Made by a program: the position numbers and the translations under genes
Shown here: in pieces, positions 18,728 to 28,549 of the stretch
How the letters are laid out: each line of letters opens with the position of its first letter
Position numbering within the stretch: position 1 is the stretch's first letter
Notes under the pieces: model-generated
What the model saw: the letters and a program-made list of their open reading frames with translations, nothing else
The model's database searches: none
What the model was told of the DNA's origin: nothing
Source of the DNA: an archaeon
Lineage (GTDB): Archaea; Nanobdellota; Nanobdellia; Woesearchaeales; ARS49
Assembly: GCA_020051845.1 (NCBI GenBank)
Contig: JAGVQG010000042.1
Span: forward strand, 1 to 41,048
Direction: 5' to 3'
Length of the DNA stretch: 41,048 nt

Positions 18728-21700
18728 TCAAAACCCTGTGGCTGGGCCGACTCCGTTCCAGAAGCCGTCGCCGTTGCCTAATCCTGATGCAGGGCCGCCG
18801 CCGTTGTTGGGGCCGATGCCGTCCCAGAAGTTGTCGCCGTTGTGCAGGCCCATCTTGCCGTGCTTCACGACGTGCGACGCTCCGTTGGTCAGGTTGATCG
18901 CCGTGACCGTGTATGAGGCGGTCTCTGCGATGTTCTTCACCAGGTAGAGTATGTTGCCGATTATGCGCGACTTGATGACGTTCGGGCCGATCGTCTTCTG
19001 GAGGTCCTTGAGCGTCTGCAATTCCTGCTGTCCTGACTTGTTGACATAGGTCTTGCTTCCGCCGTTGTCGCTCCAGACGTCCATCAGGTCGCCGAGTACG
19101 CCACGGATGACCTTCTTGGTGTTGCCGTTGGCGTGGTTGTTGTCGCTCACGAGTCCTTCTGCGGCTGTCATGTTCCTGCCTATCTCGAAGAGCTCGCTCC
19201 AGTTCGCGAGGCCGTTGTTCCTGCTGAGCTGTGCGTACGAGCTGAAGAACAGGTCAAGGCCTATCTTGTTGGCGATGTAGCGATCAGGGTTCTCCCCGAT
19301 TATCGTCTTCAGCGCGTCCGAGTTGGACAGCTGCACATACGACTCAAGTGAGACCTCGTTGCCTGCGCGCAATTGCGCCGCTGTCGGCGCTGACGGGAAG
19401 GTCAATCCCCAAGTGAGGTTTGCGTTCCACGCGTCCGCGTCCCAGAAGGGCACGAAGCTCTTGAGGGCGTTGGCGAATTTGAGGAATCCGAGCATGACGC
19501 TCGAGTCCATCGCTTTCTGGTCGATGCCTTCCTCCTTGAGTATGCGCTCGCCTTCTGCCTTTGCGGCCTTCTCGAAGGCCTTCAGCTCTGCCGAGCAGTT
19601 CTTCTTGAGGAAGTCTTCCGCGACCTTGCGGACCTTCTTGCCTGACGCGCGTGTCGCGTCGTCCTGGCTTATCTGCGCGATGTATCCGAGGGCGAATGCC
19701 TGGAAAGCAGAGTCCTTTGCCCTGCCGAGCTCGCCGTTCTTGGCGTTCTCCTGCATCTCAATGATGTGGTTCCACGCGCCCTTCCTTCCCTGGTATCCTG
19801 TGAGGAAACTGCGGGCAAGGAAGTCCTCAATCATCTCGCGGGCATGGTCGTAGTTGTGTATCTTGCCCTTCAGACCCTTGAATGTCTGGTATGCTGTGAA
19901 CGGGTTCTGCACGACTTTGTCGAGAGGGCCGTACTTCCTGAGCACGTCGTCGACGACGAGCCTTTGCTCGAGGTCGTTGAGCACAGGCACTTTTCCGTCA
20001 GAACGGGTGCATTGAGGCGCGTCGCTGTACCTGTCTTTGGCGGCTGTCCTGTTGATCAGCGTCTTGTCTGCGTTGTACTTGGCGAAGTGCTGCTTGCGCC
20101 TGTCCTGCAGCTTCTCGTTGAGCTGTTCTGCCTTGTCCGTCTTGCCGGCCATCTGTGCTTCGTAGACTGCGAGCTCGAGCAGGATGTCTGCCTGGGCGCG
20201 GTCTCCGTGCGACGCGAATTGTGCGCGGTAGTCTGACTGCTTGTCGAGCTTGTCGATGAGCGTGTCAGTGTTCATGTTGGCGACGTCTTTGTTCTTGTCC
20301 TTGATGACAGAACGGTCGACCTTGACAGGTTCCACGTAAGGAATTGTCGTGGTCGTGACTGCGCGAAGGGCTTTCTCCTTGCGATCTGCGAGCTCGTACT
20401 TCTTGCCTTCCTTCGGAGTCTCGTAATTGATGGCTCCTTGGGGGTTGACGATCGGTCCGTTCGACGTCTTCTGAGGCGCGCGCCAGACCGGTTTGTCGTC
20501 GGTCTTTGGCTGCGCGGCAACGTTTGATTGCGTTGTTGATTGCGTCTGAACCGGCGTGCCGTTCTGTTGCTTGACAGCGACTTTCACGGCACCGTCATTG
20601 TTGCTGACGTATGCAGGGACGTTCTCTTTCTTGGTCTCTGATGCAACCGGCATTTCTTTTTTCGCCGGCGCTTCAGAACCGGAATTCAGCCAGTCCAAGA
20701 ACATCCAACTTGCGCCGACAACTGCGGCTCCGCCCACTGCACCGACGACGTATTTCCCGTTGCCGGAGTCTGCCTTGCCGTCCTGGGCAAGCCTGTCCTT
20801 GAGGTCCTTGACCTCGTTCCTGTGGCTGCCTTGTTCCTGGGCGAGTATCGCCGCAAGGGTCTTGGCGTCTGAGAGATTCTTTTCCGCCCGGGTCTGCTCA
20901 GCTGAAATCTGGGTCTGCGCCGTTTTGTAATCTGATGTGAGCTTCTCGTTCGACTTCTTGAGGCCGTCGAGCTCTTCCTGCGTCTTCTGAGGTATGACGA
21001 CAGGCGCGTTCTTTGCTGCGAGTTCCTTGTTCTTGATCTGCTGATCACGGGCTTCAAGAGCCTTGTCGCGATCCGCGAGTTCCTTGTCGCGATCTGCTAG
21101 CTGCTGGTCGCGTGCCGCGAGCTTCTGGTCAAGTTCACTCAATTCCGTGCTCTTCGCGTTGACCTTGACGAGTTCGGCTTCGTACAATCTCTTTGCTTCC
21201 TTTTCGGCGTCTGCCTTGACAGAGTCGAACTTCTTTTCAAGATCGGAATATCTCTTCTCGAATTGTTCATTGAGGCGTTGCTCGGCTGCCGCGACTTTCG
21301 CGTCTGCCTTGCCTTCGCCGATGAGTACGCCGACATATCCTGTCGCGCCTAGGGCTATCGCGGCCGCTGCCACGACTCCTACTGCACCCATCTTGACTTG
21401 CTTCGCTTTCTCGGCGACTGAGTTGTAAGCTGCCTGGTACCATGGCTGTTTTTCTGAGACGTAGGCAATGACCTTGCCGACTTGAGGCGTGGTCGATGGA
21501 GCGCCGACGACTTCGTCGAGGCTTCCCAAGGGCGCTTCACCGTCGGGTCCTATAATCATCTCATTGCCATCTGCAGGTAGGTCGTTCAAGCCTGCGGCTT
21601 CCAATCTTTTCTGGAAATCGAATTCGGGATCTGCATAGGCTTGCTCTATCGTTAGACGACCCGCATTGATGACCTCATTACGGGCTTGCTCTTCAGTGAG

Positions 21701-21997
21701 ACGGCCTGCGTTTGCGTAATCGCCTTGGTTTCCGCCGTATAATTTCATCGCTGCTTCGGTGAATTGCTGCCTTTTCTCGGCGGGGATCTGGTATGCGTCC
21801 ATGACACCGGAGATTCCATCAGGGCTCTCCTCGATCGCTTTGCGGAAGCCGGATCCTATCTCTGCGCCTGCAAGTGTTTCAAGTGTGGCTAGCGCTGCGT
21901 CCTTTTCATTGACGGCTGGCTGCTCCTTTTGATCGAGAACTTGTACGCCTTGATTGGACGCGTAACCTGGACTTGCCGACTCTTCCTTCGTTGTCAT
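18728..21997 (-). CDS. Large two-span coiled-coil envelope protein, family not recognised
   Basis: 1089 residues from ATG 21997 (GGGGG seven bases upstream; ATG 22018 is an alternative). There is no signal peptide. Order: an acidic N-terminal domain with a repeated NAGRLTxEQA unit; a helix at about 204-226 (VVAAAAIALGATGYVGVLIG); a coiled coil at about 233-408 with runs such as ADRDKELADRDKALEARDQQ; a second helix at about 415-435 (YVVGAVGGAAVVGASWMF); a Gln/Thr/Asn-rich linker; then about 530 residues of mostly helical sequence ending in two Gly-Asn-Trp units (NGDNFWDGIGP, NGDGFWNGVGP). With both helices used, both ends would be cytoplasmic and the coiled coil outside. I know no matching family. 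It heads the operon with the repeat protein and has a strong promoter. Confidence 0.75.
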   Translation of the reverse strand: MTTKEESASPGYASNQGVQVLDQKEQPAVNEKDAALATLETLAGAEIGSGFRKAIEESPDGISGVMDAYQIPAEKRQQFTEAAMKLYGGNQGDYANAGRLTEEQARNEVINAGRLTIEQAYADPEFDFQKRLEAAGLNDLPADGNEMIIGPDGEAPLGSLDEVVGAPSTTPQVGKVIAYVSEKQPWYQAAYNSVAEKAKQVKMGAVGVVAAAAIALGATGYVGVLIGEGKADAKVAAAEQRLNEQFEKRYSDLEKKFDSVKADAEKEAKRLYEAELVKVNAKSTELSELDQKLAARDQQLADRDKELADRDKALEARDQQIKNKELAAKNAPVVIPQKTQEELDGLKKSNEKLTSDYKTAQTQISAEQTRAEKNLSDAKTLAAILAQEQGSHRNEVKDLKDRLAQDGKADSGNGKYVVGAVGGAAVVGASWMFLDWLNSGSEAPAKKEMPVASETKKENVPAYVSNNDGAVKVAVKQQNGTPVQTQSTTQSNVAAQPKTDDKPVWRAPQKTSNGPIVNPQGAINYETPKEGKKYELADRKEKALRAVTTTTIPYVEPVKVDRSVIKDKNKDVANMNTDTLIDKLDKQSDYRAQFASHGDRAQADILLELAVYEAQMAGKTDKAEQLNEKLQDRRKQHFAKYNADKTLINRTAAKDRYSDAPQCTRSDGKVPVLNDLEQRLVVDDVLRKYGPLDKVVQNPFTAYQTFKGLKGKIHNYDHAREMIEDFLARSFLTGYQGRKGAWNHIIEMQENAKNGELGRAKDSAFQAFALGYIAQISQDDATRASGKKVRKVAEDFLKKNCSAELKAFEKAAKAEGERILKEEGIDQKAMDSSVMLGFLKFANALKSFVPFWDADAWNANLTWGLTFPSAPTAAQLRAGNEVSLESYVQLSNSDALKTIIGENPDRYIANKIGLDLFFSSYAQLSRNNGLANWSELFEIGRNMTAAEGLVSDNNHANGNTKKVIRGVLGDLMDVWSDNGGSKTYVNKSGQQELQTLKDLQKTIGPNVIKSRIIGNILYLVKNIAETASYTVTAINLTNGASHVVKHGKMGLHNGDNFWDGIGPNNGGGPASGLGNGDGFWNGVGPATGF
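18731..18850 (-). repeat. Duplicated Gly/Asn/Trp tail of the 1089-residue protein
   Basis: The last 40 residues contain two copies of GLxNGDxFWxGxGP about 22 residues apart. The two copies differ at the DNA level by several substitutions. Confidence 0.7.
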
Positions 21998-22043
21998 TTG
22001 TATTCCCCCTGTGGCCATTCAGCGATTTGTGTGATCGAGCATA

Positions 22044-24442: not shown

Positions 24443-24477
24443 CGGTGTGCCGTTTCCGCGACTCTAGAGGGGTTTAT

Positions 24478-27400
24478 GTGAGCGACAAAGGATTCGATTT
24501 GAGCGGCATGTTCGGAAAGTCTGCTTCTAATCAGGATATCAAGAAAGAAGAGAAGAAAGTCGAACAGCTCCGTGAGGAGAAGAAGATCCTCCAGGATGAG
24601 GTCCAGGAGAAGAAGGAATCATTCTTAGGCGTCGAATCCGACGAAAAGCGCGTCGAGCGCCAATTGGATAGGGAAGAAAGCAGGCTCGACTCGATGAAAG
24701 GCGGTTTCTCGCTCAAGGGTATTTTCGAATCGAAGGGATCAGGTCGTTCAGAGGAATCTCCTATTGATCTTTCTAGGATTTGGCGTTGGATCGTCAAGAA
24801 CAAGATGTTGTTCCTCATCCTTATCCCGTTGCTTTTGAGCATCTATGTGCGCACAGGCACCAAGGACATGCCCATAGTCACTGACTGGGCGGCCAACAGC
24901 GTCAACAGTTTCATCAGGAGCGACATCGAGACGGTCATCAACGCGCAATATCCCAATCTTCCTGCTGACAGCAAGACCAAGCTCATCGACCAGCAGTTCG
25001 CAAAAGCGACCAAAGACGCCACGTACACTATCCAGACAGGCCAGTACCGTGGCCAGACGATGAACATCGCCAATGAGGTCCAGAACAACGCGGCTCAGCT
25101 CAAGCAGTTCTGGCAGTATGACCTCAACGGCAAGCAAGTCACATACATGCCAGATATAGATCCGTATTTCTACCTTAGATACGCCCAAAATCTGCTCACT
25201 AAAAGAATGTTGGGCGATGTCGCTACTCCATCAGGTGGATCCTTGGACAACCACATGAAAGCACCGATAGGCGAAGGCGTGGATTACGAAACGGTGGGCG
25301 TAATTCCTTATGTAATCGCTTGGAATCACAAACTGATGTCTTTGTTCGAAGGTGGAATCGACATTATGCAGACTGCTGCAATGGTACCAGTAATCATCAT
25401 GGCATTGGCAACTATTCCCGCTTTCCTATTAGGTAGACGTCTGGCAGGGAATATGGGTGGGTTCATGGTCGCAACAATGGTTGCCATAAATGGAGCTGCA
25501 CTAAGCAGGACATTATGGGGTCATCCTGACACCGACGGATTCCAGCTTCTGTTTCCCATGACAGTCATGTGGCTAACTGTGGAATCCATTATCGCCAAGA
25601 AAATGCTCAGGAAGATCATCTTTGCCACGATAGCGGGTGCAACTACTGCGGTCTATTCCATTGCCTGGGTAGGGTGGTGGCATCTTTTTGATTTCACACT
25701 GGCAGCCTTAGGCGCATACGGCCTGTGGACAATTGTAAGAAAACACGAGGATGGATTGAAGGCTATCGACCCACGCAATAATATTGAATGGCGTGATGCT
25801 CTACTCTTCGGATTAGTGTTTTTGGTTGTCTGTGGCACGTTCATGATAGGATTAAGCACCTTCGATAGATTCACTAATGCAGCCTCATTACCTTTCGGAT
25901 TCTCATCGGACTTCAAGGTAGCGGCAAGACCCAGTCTTTGGCCAAATGTTTACACAACAGTCGCTGAACTCAATCCAGCATCATTCGCCTCAGCAATCCA
26001 CTCTGTCGGAGGCAACATACTGCTCGCAATAGCAATCCTAGGCATAGTTTTGTTACTTTTGCAGCGCGAGCAACAAACCGCTTCGGTTTTCACCGCAATA
26101 ATCATCACATTATGGCTCATAGGCACTATCTACGCATCAAGCAAAGGGATTAGATTCACATTACTCATCGTGCCTGCTGTCTCGGCAGGTTTTGGTATAG
26201 GAATCGGCCTTTTGCACAAGCATCTTGTAAGATTCTCACGTGAAGGCCTAAGATTGCCTAATTTCGTAACAACTACTGCCTTCCTGATTGCAGTATTCGT
26301 TTTATTATTATGGGCACCTATCTCCTCTGCCCGTGAACAAGGCGCCCAAGATGTGCCAATAATGAATGATGCATGGTGGACCGCCCTTACCAAGATCAAG
26401 GACAACTCAAAGACTGATGCAGTCATCAATTCGTGGTGGGACTTCGGACATCACTTCAAGTATGTCGCCGACCGCGCAGTCACTGCCGATGGTGCTTCCC
26501 AAAATAGTCCACCTGCACACTGGATAGGCCTTGTCCTTATGACTGATGATGAGGAATTCGCAACTAATGTACTTCGAATGCTCGATTGCGGGAACAAAAG
26601 AAGCATCGAGATGTTGGATGAGTTCACGCCGAATACCGCGATCAGCGTCAAGCTGATGAAAGAGGCCATTATGATGCCAAAAAATCAGGCAAGAACCTTA
26701 TTCATCGAGAATGGCGTTCCAAAGGACAAAGTCGATGAATTGATCAAGCTCACGCATTGCGTCCCTCCAGAGAACTTCTTCATAACGTCCGATGACATGG
26801 TCGGTAAATCAGGCGTGTGGGGTCATTTCGGAAGCTGGGATTTCATGCGCGCCTACTTGCATATCAATCACCACAGCTCCACAAGGGATGTTGCTGTGGC
26901 TGACCTGGTCAAGACTTTCAACATGAGCGAGAAGAACGCCGAGAACCTCTACTTCGACGATCAGGGACTCACTGATGAGAACTCTGCCAACCAGTGGATA
27001 GCACCCTGGCCTAGCTATGTAAGCGGCCTCGCAGGATGCTCTGTTCGTGGCCCAATCATGCAATGTGGCAATGGCCTGCAGCTCAACTCGACCAACGGTG
27101 AAGCCACTGTACAGGTGCAGGGCGGTACTGTGCGGCCGAAATCCATCGTCTACATCAATGAGACAGGAGACTTTGTCGAGCGCAACTACAACGACAGCGG
27201 CGTTGATATCAGCGCCGCGATAATTCCCGCCAACGGCGGCTTCCAAAGCATACTGATGAGCCCGCAGCTTGCCAGTAGCATGTTCACGCGGCTGTTCTTC
27301 TTCAGGGGCCATGGCTTGAGCCATTTCAAGTTGTTCGATGAACAGCGCCAGCTCACGGGCGGTAATATCCTAACTTGGAAGATCGACTGGGAAGGTAAAG

Positions 27401-27621
27401 AACCAAACGAAGTTTTCACTTCGGCCGAGTCTGAACCCGAGATACAGAAGCCTAAAGAAGGCGACTTGACGAACTCGACGGTGGTCACAAACAACACATC
27501 CACCCAAAACAAGTCCGCGATCACGAACAAAACAACAACCGGGATCGCCACAAACAAAACATTGGACAATGTGACCACCGAGAATGCCACAGCGAACACG
27601 ACCGATGCCAGCGCAGCCTGA
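24478..27621 (+). CDS. aglB: Oligosaccharyltransferase AglB/STT3 with coiled-coil N-terminus and sequon-rich tail
   Basis: 1047 residues from GTG 24478, with GAGGGG five bases upstream. It transfers lipid-linked glycan to Asn of Asn-X-Ser/Thr. Motifs: first Asp-x-Asp DIDPYFYLRYAQN (about 226), second GHPDTDGF (about 347), the acceptor-binding WWDFG (about 652; usually WWDYG) and SDDMVGKSGVWGHFGSWDF (about 770), the region of the DK motif. About 12-13 membrane helices lie between residues 100 and 630. Two oddities: a charged coiled-coil extension of about 95 residues before the first helix, and a final Thr/Asn-rich tail with nine sequons. It heads a plus-strand operon of four genes and shares a TATA octamer with the divergent prenyltransferase gene. 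Confidence 0.95.
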   Translation: MSDKGFDLSGMFGKSASNQDIKKEEKKVEQLREEKKILQDEVQEKKESFLGVESDEKRVERQLDREESRLDSMKGGFSLKGIFESKGSGRSEESPIDLSRIWRWIVKNKMLFLILIPLLLSIYVRTGTKDMPIVTDWAANSVNSFIRSDIETVINAQYPNLPADSKTKLIDQQFAKATKDATYTIQTGQYRGQTMNIANEVQNNAAQLKQFWQYDLNGKQVTYMPDIDPYFYLRYAQNLLTKRMLGDVATPSGGSLDNHMKAPIGEGVDYETVGVIPYVIAWNHKLMSLFEGGIDIMQTAAMVPVIIMALATIPAFLLGRRLAGNMGGFMVATMVAINGAALSRTLWGHPDTDGFQLLFPMTVMWLTVESIIAKKMLRKIIFATIAGATTAVYSIAWVGWWHLFDFTLAALGAYGLWTIVRKHEDGLKAIDPRNNIEWRDALLFGLVFLVVCGTFMIGLSTFDRFTNAASLPFGFSSDFKVAARPSLWPNVYTTVAELNPASFASAIHSVGGNILLAIAILGIVLLLLQREQQTASVFTAIIITLWLIGTIYASSKGIRFTLLIVPAVSAGFGIGIGLLHKHLVRFSREGLRLPNFVTTTAFLIAVFVLLLWAPISSAREQGAQDVPIMNDAWWTALTKIKDNSKTDAVINSWWDFGHHFKYVADRAVTADGASQNSPPAHWIGLVLMTDDEEFATNVLRMLDCGNKRSIEMLDEFTPNTAISVKLMKEAIMMPKNQARTLFIENGVPKDKVDELIKLTHCVPPENFFITSDDMVGKSGVWGHFGSWDFMRAYLHINHHSSTRDVAVADLVKTFNMSEKNAENLYFDDQGLTDENSANQWIAPWPSYVSGLAGCSVRGPIMQCGNGLQLNSTNGEATVQVQGGTVRPKSIVYINETGDFVERNYNDSGVDISAAIIPANGGFQSILMSPQLASSMFTRLFFFRGHGLSHFKLFDEQRQLTGGNILTWKIDWEGKEPNEVFTSAESEPEIQKPKEGDLTNSTVVTNNTSTQNKSAITNKTTTGIATNKTLDNVTTENATANTTDASAA

Positions 27622-28549
27622 TATCTCAGTAGTCATCCCTGCGTTCAATGAGGCCCAGAACGTCAGGCCGATGTATGATGCCCTTACTCGCGTCCTTAAA
27701 CCGAGTGGATTGTCTTACGAATTGATCTGGATCGATGACGGTAGCCGTGACTCGACATGGAAAGAGGTCGAGAATCTGCACATGTCCGACAAAAGGGTCA
27801 TTGGTGTCAGGTTCCGCAGGAATTTCAAGAAAGCGGCTGCTTTGATGGCTGGTTTTAGGGAGGCTAAAGGCTCGCTTGTTTTGACCATGGATGCTGATCT
27901 GCAGGATGAACCTGCCGAGATTCCGAGGCTGATTCAAGCCATGCGTGAAAGGAATCTCGACCTCGTGGTCGGTTGGAAAAGGAAACGAAAGGATCCCTGG
28001 CACAAGCTTGTTTCATCTTGGTCTTTCAACCTTCTCGTAAGAAAGTTCACAGGCATTACATTGCACGATTCTGACTGTAATTTCCGTCTGATGAAAAGGG
28101 ACGTTGTCGACCATCTCGATCTGTATGGCGGGCTTTTCAGGTACATCCCGTCCATTGCACACGCTAACGGTTTCCGTGTGGGTGAGATTCCTGTGGTCCA
28201 CAATCCTCGCAGGTTCGGTAAGAGCAAGTACGGCCTCAAGCGTCTCGTGACAGGACCGTTCGATCTTTTGACGATAAAGTTCTTGCTCGATTACAAGAGC
28301 ACACCTTTGCACTTCTTCGGATTCATAGGCCTCGGATCAGCGGGTCTTGGCGCTTTGATATCTGCATATCTGGTGGTTCAGAAGATAATAGATGGCACTT
28401 TACTCGCGAACAGGCCGCTCTTGCTTCTGGCCATCCTTCTGATAATTATCGGCGTGCAGTTCATGTCCTTCGGACTTCTTGCTGAATTGATTCAATCCGA
28501 GGGACGCCGTCGATCCACGCCTTACGTGGTGCAGACGGTGCTACGATGA
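27605..28549 (+). CDS. Dolichol-phosphate mannosyltransferase-like GT2 with two C-terminal helices
   Basis: 314 residues from ATG 27605, which overlaps the aglB end by 17 bases. The GT-A domain shows SVVIPAFNEAQNV, WIDDGSRDSTW, the metal site MDADLQD (about 95) and NFRLMKRDVV. It is followed by two transmembrane helices (about 232-255, 268-292), as in GtrB/DPM1-type enzymes that load a sugar from a nucleotide donor onto a polyprenyl phosphate on the cytoplasmic side. The GT39 enzyme at 32399-34090 is a possible user of the product. The sugar is not determined by sequence. An earlier in-frame ATG at 27584 would lie deeper in aglB. Confidence 0.9.
   Translation: MPAQPDISVVIPAFNEAQNVRPMYDALTRVLKPSGLSYELIWIDDGSRDSTWKEVENLHMSDKRVIGVRFRRNFKKAAALMAGFREAKGSLVLTMDADLQDEPAEIPRLIQAMRERNLDLVVGWKRKRKDPWHKLVSSWSFNLLVRKFTGITLHDSDCNFRLMKRDVVDHLDLYGGLFRYIPSIAHANGFRVGEIPVVHNPRRFGKSKYGLKRLVTGPFDLLTIKFLLDYKSTPLHFFGFIGLGSAGLGALISAYLVVQKIIDGTLLANRPLLLLAILLIIIGVQFMSFGLLAELIQSEGRRRSTPYVVQTVLR

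Follow-up and report, generated by a model that had tools for sequence, protein, structure and literature searches.

Why does the single-subunit oligosaccharyltransferase AglB of this archaeon end in a tail packed with N-glycosylation sequons (N-X-S/T), and what do related AglB proteins carry in the same place? The window, i.e. the whole stretch of DNA that was analysed (41,048 nucleotides), is a 41-kb contig of a 1.33 Mb genome that is listed as 96.6% complete, and the nearest named relatives of this genome are metagenome genomes of Woesearchaeota and other Nanoarchaeia.

AglB, its C-terminal extension and its neighbours

The features referred to below are as follows.

24445..27621, + strand: AglB, single-subunit oligosaccharyltransferase by Pfam (STT3 and STT3-PglB_core) and Foldseek, 1058 amino acids from a GTG start
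25153..25161, + strand: first acidic motif, D237-I-D239, invariant in the 38-sequence alignment
26434..26448, + strand: WWDFG motif (WWDYG variant), residues 664-668, with invariant columns W664, W665, D666, F667 and G668
27391..27618, + strand: C-terminal extension, residues 983-1058 (76 amino acids) after ...TWKIDW, delimited by the end of the core HMM and the alignment
27421..27618, + strand: residues 993-1058 of the extension, taken as disordered because of an AF2 pLDDT below 50
27463..27618, + strand: sequon-dense 52 residues with nine overlapping or adjacent N-X-S/T sites, read from the sequence
27605..28549, + strand: next gene, GT2 family polyprenyl-phosphate glycosyltransferase (ArnC/AglJ-like; Pfam PF00535, E 6e-32)

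The window AglB generated Pfam hits above the cut-off for both the transmembrane and the core domain, on STT3 (PF02516; E 3e-32, 113 bits, cut-off 24.5) and STT3-PglB_core (PF21436; E 1.3e-5, 26.1 bits, cut-off 23), and scored 52 bits, below the cut-off of 450, with the NCBIfam archaeal STT3 model. Its AF2 model had a mean pLDDT of 82.7, and the best Foldseek matches of the model were PglB (6gxc/5ogl) and AglB (7e9s). The catalytic motifs were intact, as D237, D239, D362, D364, E508, W664-G668, D784 and K788 were invariant among the 38 relatives aligned. The window AglB is thus an oligosaccharyltransferase by profiles, motifs and fold, with predicted transfer activity, and it was the only AglB found by a search of the host genome. 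The names and roles of the acidic, WWDxG and DK-type motifs in part follow the usual assignments. The Pfam domains, the acidic and WWDFG motifs and the fold are common to the window AglB and that of Archaeoglobus fulgidus (PDB 7e9s, 5gmy). The excerpt of PMC3703281 used here gives names and roles for these motifs and describes the A. fulgidus protein as a transmembrane region followed by a C-terminal globular domain. Unlike the A. fulgidus protein, AglB proteins of the order studied here can continue past the globular domain into a sequon tail or a prolyl isomerase. At the other end of the window protein, the GTG at 24445 may lie upstream of the true start, and a charged cytosolic N-terminal extension (residues 1-110; also in L036, L033 and L068) contains a repeated short motif resembling [DE][IL]S[IV]D[FW].

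The last core strand closes at W982, which is invariant in the 38-sequence alignment, and the translation of 24445-27621 (+) ends with ...DLTNSTVVTNNTSTQNKSAITNKTTTGIATNKTLDNVTTENATANTTDASAA. From residue 991 onward, ten-residue blocks of the AF2 model had pLDDT values of 25-44. A preliminary description of the locus had listed nine sequons (NST, NNT, NTS, NKS, NKT, NKT, NVT, NAT and NTT) in the last 50 or so residues, and all of them are present; this description was correct and understated, and it missed both the order-wide spread of such tails and the isomerases of relatives. Thr, Asn, Ala and Ser are abundant in the tail; all nine Asn of the last 52 residues lie in sequons, as do nine of the ten in the whole extension. 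Shuffling of the 76 residues gave about 2.8 sequons on average, and the observed nine were reached in 7 of 200,000 composition shuffles. Mirror and spacing motifs in the same tail were not enriched (seen against expected: [ST]-X-N, 4 vs 2.9; N-[ST], 3 vs 3.0; N-X-X-[ST], 4 vs 3.1). The tail had also been placed outside the cell, which agrees with its position after the extracytoplasmic domain, and AF2 predicts it to be disordered. Pfam gave the STT3 domains alone for the window AglB, with no PPIase domain. A search for tandem repeats in the DNA beneath the tail returned no entries, and repeat expansion was therefore dropped as its origin.

The GT2 gene scored 181.6 bits with PRK10714 and 76.9 bits with AglJ in NCBIfam, both below the cut-off. 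Its start codon, an ATG at 27605 (or 27584), falls in the DNA that encodes the tail but is read in a different frame, giving an overlap of 17 (or 38) nt; the two genes are therefore probably co-translated, and the last tail codons (27584-27621) would be doubly coding. Glycosylation-type genes are found elsewhere on the contig (5538-6809, 22254-24412, 32399-40917), namely genes for a UDP-sugar dehydrogenase, a geranylgeranyl-reductase-like protein, UbiA, a PMT-like mannosyltransferase, GT4 and GT9 glycosyltransferases, a TylF-like methyltransferase and a flippase-like protein, and this predicted gene content is consistent with a surface glycosylation region. A 1096-aa protein with membrane-like segments, encoded at 18728-22018 (-), gave no match in Pfam or NCBIfam.

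Sequons in AglB tails and in the host genome

AglB C-termini were classed as tails when at least 20 residues without an isomerase followed the core, and as short when they ended within 20 residues. From 183 loci, 143 distinct C-termini were kept after removal of 36 duplicates, 3 ORFs lacking their 3′ end and 2 partial ones; a second batch, freed of duplicates and of the open L257, added 33 C-termini from the same order and five from another order of the class. The 176 distinct C-termini of the order comprised 62 tails, 50 short ends, 38 FKBP fusions, 25 parvulin fusions and 1 cyclophilin fusion, class counts that are not unbiased frequencies because the loci were collected by similarity to the window AglB. 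The statement in the preliminary description that AglB normally ends in its folded domain fails in this order, where at least 20 further residues follow the core in 126 of the 176 sequences; the five proteins from the other order, all of family f119, have no residues beyond the core. Since 50 of the 176 relatives lack both a tail and an isomerase, neither can be essential throughout the order.

The check that had been proposed, setting related C-termini against shuffled tails, bore out the enrichment: the 62 tails contained 172 sequons against 53.3 ± 6.3 expected, a number reached in none of 500 shuffles. Ten independent tails of the second batch gave the same picture (22 vs 6.4 expected; 0 of 1000 shuffles). 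Related AglB rows are not independent, a limit that is partly answered by thinning the first 52 tails to 26, in which the ratio was retained (71 vs 23.4 expected). The enrichment held for the long related tails overall and not for each of them: 7 of the 62 had no sequon, and L030 (84 aa) and L143 (79 aa), both long and acidic, had a single one apiece. Among the control motifs, the mirror [ST].N was mildly enriched (78 vs 53.4 expected, 1.46-fold), so part of the sequon excess reflects clustering of N, S and T; the spacing control N..[ST] fell below expectation (39 vs 54.3), and Q.[ST] (17 vs 17.5) and D.[ST] (31 vs 27.4) were flat. Oligosaccharyltransferases prefer Thr over Ser at the +2 position of the sequon. 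The excess of Thr at this position in the 62 tails (114 Thr and 58 Ser, with 251 Thr and 240 Ser in the tails overall) agrees with that preference.

The sequons also crowd the free end. Of the 150 sequons in the first 52 tails, 93 lay in the last third and 14 were exactly C-terminal (null mean 4, maximum 12 in 1000); in 40 of these tails a sequon ended no more than 5 residues before the C-terminus (null 19.9, maximum 32 in 1000), as it did in 48 of the full set of 62. In the same AglB proteins, sequons were depleted in the cytosolic N-terminal part (50 vs 84.3 expected) and the membrane part (149 vs 336) and mildly enriched in the core domain (504 vs 386). The sequon pattern thus follows topology, with the cytosolic and membrane parts depleted and the tails enriched. 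The interpretation that the order-wide excess in AglB tails reflects selection for N-glycosylation, at sites that are themselves predicted, is well supported by these sequence comparisons. For the window protein we favour, with moderate confidence, the explanation that selection for N-glycosylation of AglB itself maintains the tail as a disordered extracellular acceptor segment, its glycans being predicted.

The strongest alternative is that, in this group of archaea, sequons are abundant wherever an exported protein is exposed and that AglB is nothing special. A survey of the host genome (314 kb; 240 ORFs of at least 120 aa, split into membrane and exported-like proteins by a crude hydropathy rule) gave 362 sequons against 228.5 expected in exported-like proteins (1.58-fold) and 376 against 195 in membrane proteins (1.93-fold), and no excess in ORFs without membrane segments (158 vs 152), so that the genome as a whole displays sequon selection at its surface, with the AglB tail as the extreme case. 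Large secreted proteins contained the next-densest 52-residue windows, with 8, 7 and 7 sequons, so the tail is perhaps the extreme of a general habit, and the FKBP modules fused to related AglB proteins are sequon-rich as well (97 vs 32 expected in 37 modules). Against this, the tail ranked first among the 240 ORFs for sequons per 52 residues, with no other 52-residue window in the 314 kb holding more than 8. Hydrophilic 40-residue segments of other exported-like proteins had no excess (16 vs 15.9 expected), those of other membrane proteins were more weakly enriched (19 vs 11.0; 9 vs 4.1 in three segments rich in N, S and T), and C-terminal 50-mers had little or none (15 vs 12.2 in exported-like and 7 vs 6.8 in membrane proteins). 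Together with the placement of tail sequons at the extreme C-terminus, these results make a general surface property an unlikely explanation, although one with some force.

Prolyl isomerase modules at the position of the tail

Behind the last core strand, where the window AglB has its tail, relatives carry modules of three unrelated prolyl isomerase folds (FKBP, parvulin and cyclophilin), and their presence there is more surprising than the tail itself. FKBP_C (PF00254) was above the Pfam cut-off in 6 of 6 typed FKBP modules, and PF13616/PF00639 in 5 of 5 typed parvulin modules. The cyclophilin (PF00160, E 7.4e-50) occupies the C-terminal 184 aa of a 1120-aa ORF on a 512-kb contig (L181, genome G230) and was the sole spanning match among the matches listed for 352 genomes of the order. 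Among the matches listed, no FKBP-AglB spanning match lay outside the order in 378 genomes of the class, and no parvulin-AglB match did so in 371 genomes of the phylum.

The ligand-site motif FD[STA][STA] is retained in 32 of 37 fused FKBPs. The fused FKBPs of L011 and L017 are without most of the site motifs tested and, judged from these residues, are possibly non-catalytic. Two sequon columns recur in the fused FKBPs, HPLgNkT in 33 of 37 and N[IV]T in 25 of 37. The AF2 model of an FKBP-AglB (L036) had a mean pLDDT of 88.6, with about 82-92 in the FKBP part, which matched ER FKBP13 and FKBP12 with TM-scores of about 0.75-0.8 normalised by target. The module shares its fold (TM-score 0.79-0.82 normalised by target) and about 32% identity with ER FKBP13/FKBP2 (PDB 4nnr, 2pbc) and differs from them in its fusion to AglB, a longer inter-strand loop and conserved extra sequons. 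FG[YW]H[LI]I was present in 17 of 17 fused parvulins, a set chosen partly by that motif. Several parvulin fusions (L130, L259, L264, L267) have sequon-rich or acidic stretches flanking the domain. The extension of L263 (genome G346) has a parvulin-like start (IRASHILI...) followed by a sequon-rich tail and may be an intermediate between the two types of C-terminus.

Stand-alone isomerase genes beside tail-type or short AglB genes were not found in the loci searched. Gene fission was rejected, the matches being duplicate copies of fused genes or the solitary FKBPs and parvulin of the window genome. A secreted isomerase replacing the fusion in the window genome was also rejected, as these FKBPs (L101, L102) and the parvulin (L103) are without an obvious signal peptide by eye.

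On a tree of AglB cores without tails or modules (FastTree alone; 141 of 143 rows, those shorter than 330 residues being omitted), the minimum number of label changes was 7 for FKBP and 10 for parvulin. Parvulins were confined to one 33-row part of the tree, and FKBPs to a 74-row part and three rows elsewhere. Since the folds are unrelated, at least three fusions would have taken place. The change counts point to repeated loss or gain of modules and leave its direction unreadable. The window AglB belongs to a 21-row group (support 93; the program's mark is 95) in which 18 rows bear an FKBP; on its branch, an FKBP was probably either lost and replaced by the glycan tail or never present beside it.

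This position on the tree raises the alternative that the tail is the leftover of a decayed FKBP or parvulin, for which the extension of L263 could be taken as a parallel. We regard a remnant as distinctly unlikely: the window tail retains no FKBP similarity, decay alone would not increase sequons, and many tail lineages have no isomerase-bearing neighbours on the tree.

Possible roles of the AglB C-terminus

An acceptor segment for AglB itself would operate as follows. The C-terminal domain lies outside the cell, where the disordered tail would be within reach of the same or a neighbouring AglB; after translocation of the chain, AglB would modify its own tail, in cis or through such a neighbour, and a brush of N-glycans would coat the C-terminal end of the enzyme. 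Use of the sites, AglB as the modifier and a protecting or spacing brush are all inferred, protection and spacing of the enzyme end being the likeliest function. Since a single AglB was found in the genome, self-modification would be the likeliest route, and self-glycosylation of the tail is plausible by analogy with two known proteins: Archaeoglobus AglB glycosylates a tethered sequon peptide intramolecularly (PMC8342417, in part of its text), and AglB of Haloferax is itself N-glycosylated in vivo (PMC8241124, in the portion used). The Haloferax volcanii protein differs in that this portion of PMC8241124 reports no sequon-packed terminal tail.

The reaction in cis could also mean that the tail is a tethered substrate that regulates the enzyme by occupying the acceptor site until it is glycosylated or displaced by a client. 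The crowding of sequons at the free end would suit such a regulator, as would the N-terminal extension of GRP94, which occupies and inhibits human STT3A (PMC12804085, in part). Reactive sequons, however, would be consumed once and then cease to compete, the sequence showed no inhibitor feature, for example a conserved non-acceptor variant, and tails vary widely between lineages, so that regulation of this kind seems very unlikely. Drift of a low-complexity N/T/S-rich linker with sequons as a by-product of its composition is hardly tenable, since, in spite of the Thr, Asn, Ala and Ser richness of the tail and the mild enrichment of the mirror motif across tails, composition-keeping shuffles still fall 3-fold short of the observed sequons, N..[ST] is rarer than expected, Q.[ST] and D.[ST] occur about as often as expected, the +2 position favours Thr and no DNA repeat was found.

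The acceptor segment thus remains the preferred explanation of the tail. As the isomerases of relatives occupy its position, the C-terminal end of AglB would be an accessory site near the acceptor-binding face, which suggests a general docking place for helper modules. It may be, though we put this tentatively and lean slightly towards doubt, that the C-terminus is an evolutionary socket taking either one of three unrelated prolyl isomerases or a self-glycosylating tail, as a single-chain counterpart of the eukaryotic oligosaccharyltransferase (OST) with its folding factors. The isomerase in such a socket would hold acceptor chains in an open state or fold them while they are glycosylated, and a glycan tail would hold or shield the acceptor face in another way. 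The occurrence of three unrelated folds at one site would then imply that prolyl isomerisation, or a chaperone activity that they share, limits N-glycosylation.

In yeast and humans, Ost3/Ost6 (TUSC3/MAGT1) are oxidoreductase subunits of OST with a thioredoxin fold. Like the fusions, they attach a folding-related enzyme to OST, but as separate thioredoxin-fold subunits and not as prolyl isomerases. Human FKBP11 sits at the SEC61-OST-A translocon and so places an FKBP beside STT3 as the fusions of relatives do, but it is a separate, unfused membrane protein (PMC12804085, in part). CCDC134 buries the active site of FKBP11, and that part of the paper argues against isomerase activity, which weakens a simple interpretation of the fusions as isomerases. 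No link between AglB and a prolyl isomerase and no AglB acceptor tail was found in the titles and abstract openings of the literature searched, which covered few subscription journals, and the part of PMC4973528 consulted, on the evolution of N-glycosylation pathways, has no mention of Woesearchaeota, DPANN or an isomerase.

In eukaryotes, OST associates with folding enzymes that are subunits of their own. In this order the coupling occurs within one polypeptide, in several unrelated versions and in small genomes that keep little excess. Cutting or swapping the fusions within a single gene could show how isomerisation or a glycan tail affects site occupancy, and the AglB tails are a natural collection, obtained from genome data alone, of terminal acceptor sequences with closely packed sites.
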